From Candidatus Sericytochromatia bacterium (GTDB lineage Bacteria > Cyanobacteriota > Sericytochromatia > UBA7694 > JACMQJ01): a DNA stretch of 64,000 nt. Position 1 is the stretch's first letter. The number at the start of each line of letters is the position of its first letter. The notes beneath the pieces are model-generated. The model saw only the letters and a program-made list of their open reading frames with translations, had not been told where the DNA came from and did no database searches. The translations under genes were made by a program, and so were the position numbers. Below, piece by piece: positions 53-56,008 of this stretch. The stretch spans positions 1-64,000 of the forward strand of contig BPII01000008.1 in NCBI GenBank assembly GCA_026004035.1, in the 5' to 3' direction.

Positions 53-156
53 ATTTGAGTAATTACCTAAATTTAAAGTATTTTTTAATATAAATCTTTA
101 AAATGCTTAATATTAAAAATTTTGAGCTTATCAAAAAATAACATTAGCTTAGTACT
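53..156 (-). repeat. Dispersed repeat, copy 1 (shortened)
   Basis: This is a member of a four-copy intergenic repeat family (others near 12540, 49423 and 55893). The shared core on the plus strand reads ATATAAATCTTTAAAATGCT, followed by a segment ending in TATCAAAAAATAACATTAGC. Its orientation is opposite to the copies at 12540 and 49423. The outer arm is shorter than in those copies, and the terminal CAGTGC-type end has decayed to AGTACT. It abuts the stop codon of the EF-hand gene at 161. Confidence 0.7.
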
Positions 157-5653: not shown

Positions 5654-6359
5654 AGTTTTTTTTCTATATTTATTCCTTCTTTTTTTAATGCCATTTGTCT
5701 TTTTAATTCTTCTAACTCGCTTTTTTGCTGCAAGATTTGTAGCTTTTTGTTTTATATTTTTTAATTTAACATCTAAATTTTGAGATGCAATTTCTTTATT
5801 AACTTGTACTTCTGCTTCAAGTTTTTGTATATCTTCTCTTACTGAAGTAAGAGCCTTAAGGTCAGCATCAACTGATAAACTTGATAATTGCTCTTGTATT
5901 TTTTTTTGTACCAAAGCATTTTCTCTTTTTGCAAGCATTTTTTCTTTTTCTGCTTTTAATTTTTCTATCTCAGCTTGAAAAGCTATCAGATTAGACTTTG
6001 CTTCTTCAGCTTGGTTACTTAACACTTTCAAGTTCTGCTTGTATTCTTTCTATGTCAGCTGTCAAAGCGTTTTTTTGTTCTATTAGTAATAAAGAAACTT
6101 CATCATCACCTTCTTGTATAGCTATAGGTAATTGTTGTTGAATTTCCTTAAGCTTTTGTGATTTTTCTTCTAATTCTTTTTGAAGTTTATTTCTTAAATA
6201 AACTATTCCTGAAACAGCTTTTAATAGTTTTTGATGTTGCTCTACTCTCTTATTTATAGCTGCTTCATAAACTAATTCAGGATTATTTTTTTCTAAGCCC
6301 TCTACAAATAAACTTAAAAATCCTTTCCATAAATTAGATAATCTTGAAAAAAAACTCAT
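5650..6359 (-). pseudogene. pspA: PspA/IM30 (Vipp1-like) membrane-stress protein, two frameshifts
   Basis: The start gives MSFFSRLSNLWKGFLSLFVE, an amphipathic N-terminal helix followed by long coiled-coil helices (QHQKLLKAVSGIVYLRNKLQ), the hallmark of PspA/IM30 proteins that form rings or filaments on the inner membrane under envelope stress. The frame ends at 6015, and the coiled coil continues in the next frame (LSNQAEEAKSNLIAFQAEIE). A second shift near 5712 in an A-run restores a natural end (SELEELKRQMALKKEG) with a stop at 5650. Removing one base at each site gives 235 residues, normal for the family. The start is supported by an AGAGG-like site just upstream. The gene is either genuinely broken or carries two consensus errors. 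Confidence 0.7.
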
Positions 6360-6437
6360 TTTTTACCTCTTAAAATTTCTTATTACTATTATAACATAAC
6401 CATAACTAATCAATTTATTTTACATAAATATTAATTT

Positions 6438-8029
6438 TTATTTTTTAACTACATTAAGTCCAAGCTTTTTAATTGCTTCATTAAAAAATACCTATGCCAT
6501 GTTTCATTTTTATAAATACCTTTAACTTTAAAAGGTATATAAAGTATTTTCAAATATGCTTTTAAAATATTTAGGATGAAATTTTTTCATCAAAATGTTT
6601 TAAGCCAATTTTCAGTTTCAATTCCAAATTTATCTAGTGAATTATATATATTAGAAAAAGGTCTAACTTGAAAAGTTCTAACAAGTTATTTTAAATTTAT
6701 TTAATTTATTTTCTCTTTTGTATTTTTTATAAAATTCTAATGATTGCTCAAATGTTTCTAAAAAATCTCTTTCTGTTTCTCCTGGATAACCAACAAATAA
6801 ATTTACAAAAGTATTTACATTGTTATCTACTAAATAATTAATAGAGTTTATAATCTCTTGATTAACCTTTTTTTTATTCATATCATTCCAAAGTTTCCTG
6901 TGAAAATGATTCAACACCAAGTATTGACACAAACAAACCATTTCTACTTAACATCCTTAACTAAATCTTCTTTTAATTGTGCTCTAAAAAATATCCTCCC
7001 CAATTAAATTTATAGATATTTGAACTTAAAATATTAGAAAAACTCTTCAAGCCATTGATTAGAAGAGTTTATTAAACTATCTGATATGCTAAAAGTATTA
7101 ATATTATGTTTTTCATAAAGTATTTTCATATCATATATAAACTTTTTCAGGGCTCTCTCTCTCTTAAATTTTTTTCCAAATAAACTATGTTCAGAGCAAA
7201 AATGACATCTAAAAGGACAACCTCTATTTGAATATACAGATATTAATTTAGGATTAAACAAGTTTAAATCTATATCAGAATAATCAGGTGTTGGTAAATC
7301 TTCTAAATTCATATTTTGTGAAAAAGTATCTAAATTATAAATATTTGATAATGTTTTAACTCCGATTATATTATCAACATTTTCATTATTAACTATTGAA
7401 GTGATTATTTTATAAAAAGGTTCTTCACCTTCTCCTATAACAACATAATCAGCTATTCCTGATAATAATAACAATTCTCTACTAGTTTTTACCCTGTGTT
7501 ATCTGTGGTCCTCCAAAAACGATTTTTGTTTTAGGATTATTATTTTTAATAAGTAATGCCATAATTACAGATAAATAAAAGTTTGTGGTATATAAACTAA
7601 ATCCTATTAAATCGTAATTTTCAAAATATTTTTAAATTTCTTAGTGGCAAAATAATTTGTTTTTTTTAATTTATTTATTATAAAATCAGGTAAAAAACCT
7701 CTTTCTAGTGCCCACACCTTAGCTTGTTTTTCATTTCGGTTCTAATATACTTTTTATAGTTTTATTATCTTGATAATTCTTTATAACAGATGCTATTAAA
7801 GGTAAATCGTATATATCACTAACCATATTGATTTTTAAAGGTTATATTTGGTAAAGTTGAATTTCCCCATATATCATTTGATTCTTTATCTAATCTTAAA
7901 TCTATTGTTCCTTATTTCAATATTTTTAATTTTTTCTTTTATATATGCTGATATACATGCATTACCTAGATGAGGAATTAAGAAATCATTGTCTTGAAAA
8001 GATGGTAATACTGAAAGTAAAATTTTCAT
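6438..8029 (-). pseudogene. Broken B12-binding-type radical SAM protein
   Basis: The start codon at 8029 directly follows the transaldolase stop (TAA then ATG). The N-terminus reads MKILLSVLPSFQDNDFLIPH, as in cobalamin-binding radical SAM enzymes. Other frames give GFSLYTTNFYLSV and VFGGPQIT (B12-binding domain), then a clean stretch with YVVIGEGEEPFYKII and NRGCPFRCHFCSE, the CxxxCxxC motif for the [4Fe-4S] cluster that cleaves SAM. Further on, NTFVNLFVGYPGETERDF is the usual TIM-barrel strand. The end is NEAIKKLGLNVVKK. Many single-base indels break the roughly 530-residue protein. Reaction and substrate are unknown; relatives include methyltransferases and cofactor-biosynthesis enzymes. 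Confidence 0.65.
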
Positions 8030-12539: not shown

Positions 12540-12682
12540 GGCACTGAGCTAATGTCATTTTTTGATAAGCTCAAAATCATTTAATAGTAAGGCATTTTAA
12601 AGATTTATATTAAAATATATTTTAAATTTAGTGTTTATAAGCTTTTGAAGATAATTTTTTTTCTATAACTCAATTCCAGTGC
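12540..12682 (+). repeat. Dispersed repeat, copy 2 (full length)
   Basis: This is the best-preserved copy. It opens with GGCACTGAGCTAATG and closes with CAATTCCAGTGC, so the ends form a short terminal inverted repeat (GCACTG / CAGTGC) about 143 bp apart. Near the left end TGAGCT and AGCTCA can pair around a 15-base loop. It carries no coding capacity. The right end overlaps an upstream in-frame GTG of the decarboxylase frame, which is one reason to reject that longer start. Confidence 0.75.
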
Positions 12683-40378: not shown

Positions 40379-42226
40379 TTATTTGTCTTCATCTAATGAT
40401 TTTAATGACAAATCAATCTCATTGTCTAATGATAAATCATCAAGAGGTAATTCATCATCAAATTTTTCTTCCTGTTGTTTTTCTCCTTTCAATGGTGATA
40501 TTTCAGATTGTAATTCAGATACTATTTTCAAATTTTCAATATTAGTTGTCCTTATATTAAAAGCTCCTTCAGCTTCACCTGTCTTTTTATTTAAATCCAA
40601 AGTAGTTTCTATTTTTATATCTTTTTTATCAAGAGCAACAGTTTCTTGTTCAAGTTCTTCTTTAGGTTCTTCTAGTTCTTCTTCTATAGGTAATTCTTCA
40701 AGAGTAGCTATTTCTTGTTCTGGTTCTTCTTTAGGTTCTTCTAGTTCTTCTTCTATAGGTAATTCTTCAAGAGTAGCTGTTTCTTGTTCAAGTTCTTCTT
40801 TTAGGTTTTCAAGTTCTTCTTCTATAGGTAATTCTTCAAGAGTAGCTATTTCTTGTTCTGGTTCTTCTTTTAGGTTTTCAAGTTCTTCTTCTATAGGTAA
40901 TTCTTCAAGAGTAGCTATTTCTTGTTCTGGTTCTTCTTTTAGGTTTTCAAGTTCTTCTTCTATAGGTAATTCTTCAAGAGTAGCTATTTCTTGTTCTGGT
41001 TCTTCTTTTAGGTTTTCAAGTTCTTCTTCTATAGGTAATTCTTCAAGAGTAGCTATTTCTTGTTCTGGTTCTTCTTTTAGGTTTTCAAGTTCTTCTTCTA
41101 TAGGTAATTCTTCAAGAGTAGCTGTTTCTTGTTCAAGTTCTTCTTTAGGTTCTTCTAGTTCTTCTTCTATAGGTAATTCTTCAAGAGTAGCTGTTTCTTG
41201 TTCAAGTTCTTCTAAATCTACCTCTTCCAGTGTTAATTCTTCATCTAAGTTTGTATCTAGTAATTCCTCATCTGAAGGTAACTCTTCTTCGTTTATACCT
41301 TCTTTATAATCAAATTCAGAAATAGATGATATTTCTTTATCTTGTTTATCTTGCTTTAATGTTTTTAGAAAATCTTCTTCCGTTAATTCTTCTTCTAGTG
41401 ATGACATTGTGTCTTTATATTCAGAAATTTGTTTTTCTAGTGAGTTTATTTTTTCTTGTAAAGATTCTATTTGCTTGTTAGCTTTCAATAGTTTTTCTTC
41501 ATATTCTTTTAATTTTTCATTATCTAATGTACTAGTTTGCATGATAGTAGGTTGAGTAGTAGTGCTATCAATATCAGCAACTCTTTTTTCTAAAACATAA
41601 ACTTTAGTTTCTAATTCATTTATTTGTTTTAGATATTTATCTATTTGAATGTTTTTAGCTTCTATTGTATTTTTTAAATCTAATTTTTCTCTCTCCTTAT
41701 TATTTATTTCTATATTTTTTTGTTCTATTAATTTTTTAAGCTCTGGTAATTCAGCAATATTTTTCTTTAGGTTTAAGTTTTCCTCTTCAAGTGTTTTAAC
41801 CATTTTATTTAAAACAGATATTTCATGCTCTTTTTCTTGTAAATTATTTTGCATTAATTTTAATAAATCTTGATTTTCCAAGTTTTGATTATCATCATTA
41901 CTTGCTAAAGATGAAAGGCCTGTTATTTTTATATTAGAACTTATTTCTTTTATTTGATTTTTTAAAAATTCATTTTCTTCTAAGATCTCTTTATGTTTTT
42001 TTATTAAAGGCCTTAAAAATGATTTTACTTCTTCTAAATATTTTTGTTTTTGCTTAACATTAAATTGTCTAAGTAATTCATTTTTTTGTCTTAATCTATT
42101 TATTTCCATTGTTAAGGCAGCATTAGCTTTTTGAGGATCTTCAAAATCATCTATTTCTTCAGACTCTGTTTTATCCCCTAATTCACTTTCTAAATCTTCT
42201 TCTAAGTCTTCATCAAAATCAACCAT
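40379..42226 (-). CDS. Acidic coiled-coil protein with eight tandem 23-residue repeats
   Basis: A 615-residue, very acidic protein with no signal peptide. Residues 30-280 form a long coiled coil (NAALTMEINRLRQKNELLRQ). Residues ~348-531 are eight copies of a 23-residue unit built on LEELPIEEELENLKEEPEQE. A short tail ends ELPLDDLSLDNEIDLSL. A GAGGAG site precedes the ATG. The repeat array is likely to vary in number through replication slippage. The function is unknown; such proteins often act as spacers or scaffolds. The Ser-rich frame opposite the repeat is an artefact of the Glu codons. Confidence 0.75.
   Translation of the reverse strand: MVDFDEDLEEDLESELGDKTESEEIDDFEDPQKANAALTMEINRLRQKNELLRQFNVKQKQKYLEEVKSFLRPLIKKHKEILEENEFLKNQIKEISSNIKITGLSSLASNDDNQNLENQDLLKLMQNNLQEKEHEISVLNKMVKTLEEENLNLKKNIAELPELKKLIEQKNIEINNKEREKLDLKNTIEAKNIQIDKYLKQINELETKVYVLEKRVADIDSTTTQPTIMQTSTLDNEKLKEYEEKLLKANKQIESLQEKINSLEKQISEYKDTMSSLEEELTEEDFLKTLKQDKQDKEISSISEFDYKEGINEEELPSDEELLDTNLDEELTLEEVDLEELEQETATLEELPIEEELEEPKEELEQETATLEELPIEEELENLKEEPEQEIATLEELPIEEELENLKEEPEQEIATLEELPIEEELENLKEEPEQEIATLEELPIEEELENLKEEPEQEIATLEELPIEEELENLKEELEQETATLEELPIEEELEEPKEEPEQEIATLEELPIEEELEEPKEELEQETVALDKKDIKIETTLDLNKKTGEAEGAFNIRTTNIENLKIVSELQSEISPLKGEKQQEEKFDDELPLDDLSLDNEIDLSLKSLDEDK
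40634..41185 (-). repeat. Eight tandem 69-bp in-frame repeats
   Basis: Eight consecutive 69-base units encode 23 residues each. Five share LENLKEE-type centres and three share LEEPKEE-type centres; the two types are arranged EEP, five ENL, then two EEP along the protein. Four consecutive inner units are identical at the protein level, pointing to recent duplication or gene conversion. The whole array keeps the reading frame. Confidence 0.9.
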
Positions 42227-43703: not shown

Positions 43704-43987
43704 CCTATAAGATTTTTTAAAAAAGAATAAAATAATACTAAATAACATAAAATAAGAAATAAATAAGTTATACTATAATGATACCAATTTATTAAATTGA
43801 TAGTACATTAAAAGTTAATGTTTTTTATAGTTACAATTTTGTTTAATTATACTAAAATTCTTATATGTCAAGTAATTTATTAAAAACTTATAGTTTTTTT
43901 TAATTTTTTATACTTTATTTTTAACTATTAATTATGCACCATTTATTATAAATTGGTATAAGATAATTAACTATTTGAAATTTATTA
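43704..43987. other. Convergent intergenic region, no gene seen
   Basis: A 284-base AT-rich gap between the TPR-like gene and the FliI-type gene, which end toward each other. It has short A and T runs and near-palindromes (for example TACCAATTTATTAAATTGATA) but no convincing hairpin with a T-tract, no ORF and no copy of the dispersed repeat. Confidence 0.4.
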
Positions 43988-49379: not shown

Positions 49380-49422
49380 AATTTTAATTTTTTGCTACAA
49401 ATATTATAATATTATATCTTAG

Positions 49423-49560
49423 GAACTGAGCTAATGTTATTTTTTGATAAGCTAAAAATTCTTTAACAATAAGCATTTTAAAGATTTATATTTAAAAATA
49501 CTCTAAATTTAGTATTTATAAGTTTTTAAAGGTAATTTTTATATAACTCAATCCCAGTGT
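49423..49560 (+). repeat. Dispersed repeat, copy 3 (full length)
   Basis: Same orientation and length class as copy 2. It opens GAACTGAGCTAATGTTAT and closes CTCAATCCCAGTGT, keeping a partial terminal inverted repeat (ACTG / CAGT). The central AAAGATTTATATTTAAAA block matches the other copies. It lies between the NDH-2 gene and queF. Confidence 0.75.
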
Positions 49561-55734: not shown

Positions 55735-55910
55735 ATGATAATTAAAATTTTGCTAAGCTTTTTATTTTAACATCATTTTTAACGTCATGTTCTACTTACT
55801 TAAAGACAAATAATACTTTAAATAGTATTAATGATTTTAATTATAATATAGTAAATAAACTCAATATAAATGTTAAAACTATACCTAATTTAAATAGAAA
55901 AAATTGCTGA
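55735..55910 (+). pseudogene. Lipoprotein gene remnant
   Basis: ATG at 55735 preceded by GGAGAA begins MIIKILLSFLF and stops at once. One frame over, the signal peptide continues ILTSFLTSCSTYLK with a lipobox-like SFLTSC, then an Asn-rich stretch to a TGA at 55908-55910. The end coincides with the start of the dispersed repeat, which may have truncated it. The remaining ~58 codons give no functional clue. Confidence 0.4.
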
Positions 55911-56008
55911 TAAATACTAAATTTAAAGCATTTTTTTAATATAAATCTTTAAAATACTTACTATTAGAGGATTTTGATCTTATCAAAAAATAACATTAGC
56001 CCAGTGCC
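55893..56008 (-). repeat. Dispersed repeat, copy 4 (truncated)
   Basis: Same orientation as copy 1. The core CTAAATTTAAAGCATTTTTT and the closing AACATTAGCCCAGTGCC are retained, ending at 56008. The left arm with the other inverted terminus is missing or diverged. It separates the lipoprotein remnant from the MenE-like gene. Confidence 0.7.

Follow-up and report, generated by a model that had tools for sequence, protein, structure and literature searches.

The ~140-bp repeat that occurs at four places in the window (the whole 64-kb stretch of DNA analysed here) belongs to a family of ~80 copies in its genome, and is most probably a MITE that an IS1-family transposase, now extinct or unassembled, once mobilised in trans. 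The preliminary description had listed four related copies, two of them minus one arm. All four are present and align with each other over a common core, of which 23 bp occur four times in the window, where dinucleotide shuffles predict 0.00; the arm missing from copies 1 and 4 is the right one.

66 to 153, minus strand: copy 1, without right arm (consensus 4-92, profile search)
12540 to 12682, plus strand: copy 2, full length (consensus 1-140, profile search)
12540 to 12558, plus strand: left terminal inverted repeat of copy 2, GGCACTGAGCTAATGTCAT (from the sequence and the family consensus)
12664 to 12682, plus strand: right terminal inverted repeat of copy 2, ATAACTCAATTCCAGTG plus the last bases, the end common to IS1 relics
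49422 to 49560, plus strand: copy 3, full length (consensus 1-140, profile search)
55905 to 56008, minus strand: copy 4, without right arm (consensus 1-103, profile search)

The window is part of a 2.64 Mb host assembly (46 contigs, ~75% complete), and a search of the whole of it for further copies was productive. The 23-bp left-end core has 71 genome matches at no more than three mismatches and the reversed pattern none; the terminal-repeat motif has 129, against one for its control. Of 292 first-look candidates in one search, the 40 best are 86-100% identical. Profile search in 349 kb fetched around matches recovers 84 copies or fragments, a number that, because the 349 kb were picked by matches, should approach the total for copies with a recognisable left end, and from which fragments keeping the right end only may be missing. 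The family consensus, GGCACTGGGCTAATGTTAT...ATAACTCAATCCCAGTGCC, is 141 bp long and non-coding, with no ORF; 60 full copies give a 141-bp consensus, GGCACTGGGCTAATGTTATTTTTTGATAAGCTTAAAATCC...GGTAATTTTTTCTATAACTCAATCCCAGTGCC, from which they diverge by 7.4% on average. The inverted ends already noticed in single copies recur in the family consensus as GGCACTGGG and CCCAGTGCC, identical at 15 of 19 bp, and the boundaries are sharp: flanking columns are at background composition. The family is thus short and non-coding, with many dispersed copies, constant ends and terminal inverted repeats, as MITEs are. Two 141-bp copies lie head to tail with a common boundary on contig C2 of the host genome, G000 (C2:159490-159750). 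PLSDB holds no match to the element, and core matches on five IMG/VR contigs were rejected, the element being absent from all five. The sequence family appears to be new; the kind of element is already known.

The link to IS1 comes from the ends. Terminal-motif matches that lack the MITE interior reveal a second repeat set, which ends in GGCACTGGGATTGAGTTATAGAAAAGAAATTTGAGAG and adjoins broken reading frames. A composite query built from pieces of these frames finds 15 fragments in the genome, none of them a complete gene. Similarity of the transposase pieces to NCBIfam model NF033558 (IS1 transposase) is weak (E 8e-6, below the model's cut-off), and the C-terminal piece has no Pfam match; the relics are 40-53% identical to transposases annotated as IS1 on Thiodictyon and Pseudanabaena plasmids, the Pseudanabaena IS1 being also among the closest known. 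At the right end, the relics (GGCACTGGGATTGAGTTATAGAAAA) and the MITE are identical at 25 of 26 bp, and the left ends match at 16 of 19 bp. A transposase with matching ends, as the preliminary description had hoped for, therefore exists in the form of these IS1 relics: the MITE has ends in common with an autonomous insertion sequence, all copies found of which are broken. No intact IS1 transposase was found in the ~75% complete assembly; an intact partner IS1 would be recognised by its left end, GGCACTGGGCTAATGTTATTTTTTG. No match was established between the MITE interior and the IS1 relics, so that a simple origin by internal deletion is not supported by match. At C16:28839 a MITE left end occurs together with an IS1-relic right tail, a junction that is either a deletion derivative or the product of adjacent insertions.

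The closest IS1 relative found, on plasmid pTs417 of Candidatus Thiodictyon syntrophicum, has the tip GGCACTGG in common with the 141-bp repeat. Its tips are GGCACTGGTTCAG on either side, with 8 bp of duplicated target, ACCGCAGC, whereas the repeat has neither a duplication nor an ORF. One IS1 copy in another genome (G132), with a transposase 50% identical to the pieces, has tips like these and shows no evident duplication. A ~65-bp repeat, TATAATTTTTCACTCG...GATATGACAATAGTTTTTAG, repeatedly adjoins the IS1 relic ends (G000 loci L061, L117, L120, L121 and L114), where it represents either a target hot spot or a composite.

Taken as a MITE, the ~141 bp non-autonomous element would have had its ends recognised in trans by an IS1-family DDE transposase of the same genome. 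One or few source copies may then have been amplified into the ~80 intergenic copies, with selection presumably removing insertions that hit genes. With every IS copy found being broken, the family has probably lost its mobility, leaving it to decay under strong GC-to-AT mutation pressure.

The location between genes, first noticed in the window, extends to the whole genome, where 63 of 67 copies are intergenic, compared with ~17% of random intervals. The arrangements of neighbouring genes are about equally frequent (20, 17, 15 and 13), with no orientation bias. Substitutions are AT-biased (16.8% of GC sites changed to AT, 2.9% of AT sites to GC), as expected of neutral decay in an AT-rich genome; the window itself has 22.9% GC. 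These observations bear on the other half of the earlier proposal, that the copies are a family of structured RNAs or 3' processing elements, here taken to act on mRNA and to be maintained by selection. The element is partly self-complementary and folds with modest z-scores of -1.7 and -2.5, and intergenic placement would suit such a role, but paired positions do not covary: on the fold of the family consensus, standard pairs amount to 0.888 against 0.888 in shuffles, with 19 double changes against 18.2, and the end stems are broken independently among copies. Rfam has no family matching the element, copies 2 and 3 have no terminator-like sites, and an orientation bias to genes is likewise lacking. 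Given the absence of covariation and the AT-biased neutral substitution pattern, a selected RNA structure is highly improbable. What stands of the preliminary description is the MITE reading, favoured by the dispersal in both orientations, the inverted ends, the sharp boundaries and the relics.

The insertions themselves are less typical of IS1. Target-site duplications, proposed earlier as a signature to look for, are absent: in 59 full copies, direct repeats of 2-12 bp are not enriched beside the ends or at offsets up to 12 bp from them, and none of the 59 has an 8-bp duplication with at least seven matches. The mean match puts the share of copies carrying an 8-bp duplication at 5 +/- 4%, and at ~12% at most. 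Flank shuffling by recombination or replicative inversion was rejected as an explanation, left flanks showing no excess of matches to the right flanks of other copies. A second repeat family serving as positive control for the duplication test gave 3 of 7, too few copies. Extra end motifs near copies are only weakly enriched (3 of 141 flanks in the first 25 bp, 0-2 elsewhere). The 8-10 bp duplication usual for IS1 is thus missing from the 141-bp copies, so the IS1 assignment is limited to the common ends and excludes the insertion products. Point mutation alone is insufficient to explain the missing duplications, since AT sites in the element have changed by only 3.8% per copy. A review of prokaryotic MITEs ties duplications to younger members and has them fade with age (PMC10969869); their absence therefore does not exclude MITE membership. 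Empty sites in relatives, the other expected trace, were uninformative: the 59 relatives are without the family and too distant, and repeats within the genome offer no clean empty site either. The best within-genome junction, C8:114721 inside an IS1 left end, reaches only ~15 bp past the insertion.

Three accounts of the missing duplications can be weighed against each other. The element could have moved by a mechanism that makes none, such as that of single-strand Y1 transposases (IS200/IS605 or REP type), its IS1-like ends being secondary. The 59 copies without a duplication fit this, as do ends able to pair into a hairpin; true terminal inverted repeats common to IS1-transposase relics, and a left flank without the fixed tetranucleotide that Y1 elements need, make it very unlikely. 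Alternatively, as a refinement compatible with IS1-mediated mobilisation, duplications of 8-9 bp were made and then erased by deletions beside the element. IS1 elements are known for adjacent deletions, and several copies adjoin other repeats or IS1 relics that are truncated and whose remainder is missing, which suggests adjacent deletion. Erasure nevertheless requires, for nearly every copy, a deletion that ended exactly at the tip and left the element ends intact, and we consider it possible but doubtful. Somewhat less likely again is an IS1-type MITE family that inserts without duplication, in a subgroup or host where both ends are joined at a single position or target bases are lost.

Beyond this genome, the family is absent from all 59 relatives searched; weak matches in nine of them, with E above 5e-5, were taken as chance AT-rich matches. 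Two copies, one of them 98% identical to a copy here, lie on contig BPGB01000019.1 (L048; 19 kb, 23.3% GC) of a 1.7 Mb MAG labelled Woesearchaeota, in which no other contig carries the element. The acyl-CoA dehydrogenase gene of this contig is only 69% identical to its best match in the present genome. The contig probably derives from a relative of this genome and was mis-binned; for that reason transfer between lineages is not claimed. Another ~140 bp family is found at 6335-6486 of the same contig and at C4:71597, C19:11862 and C3:101338 of the host genome, with 94-96% identity between the two.

Other repeats were met along the way. A MITE-like family of ~177 bp with ends TACCAATTT and AAATTGGTA has a window copy at 43783-43956 and is also inserted within 141-bp elements (C5:115294-115474, C5:135655 and C23:19405), with three of the copies sharing one TTAATAGTAA site of insertion. 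Inside a 141-bp copy at C20:7540-7640 (L060) lies a third small element with inverted repeats, ATACTAAACT...GTTTAAGTAT, and an apparent TA duplication. The window further holds a tandem array of nine 69-bp units (40538-41365) within a long reading frame (40379-42226).

The assignment accounts for a repeat that stands out in a very AT-rich, little-sampled lineage of what appears to be the cyanobacterial phylum, and guards against its annotation as an RNA gene. It also exposes one odd and testable feature worth follow-up, an IS1-like family without target duplications. A narrow literature search found no IS1-related MITE, and as a type such elements may be little described. Known prokaryotic MITEs (Correia, ERIC, Nezha; PMC10969869) are similarly below 500 bp and AT-rich, with terminal inverted repeats, many intergenic copies and a related insertion sequence; the present repeat differs from them in sequence and IS family, and lacks the flanking duplications typical of younger MITEs. 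With the palindromic repeats of REP and IS200-IS605 type it shares intergenic placement, palindromic character and the absence of target duplication, but it is longer than these, bears terminal inverted repeats and is flanked by no fixed tag.
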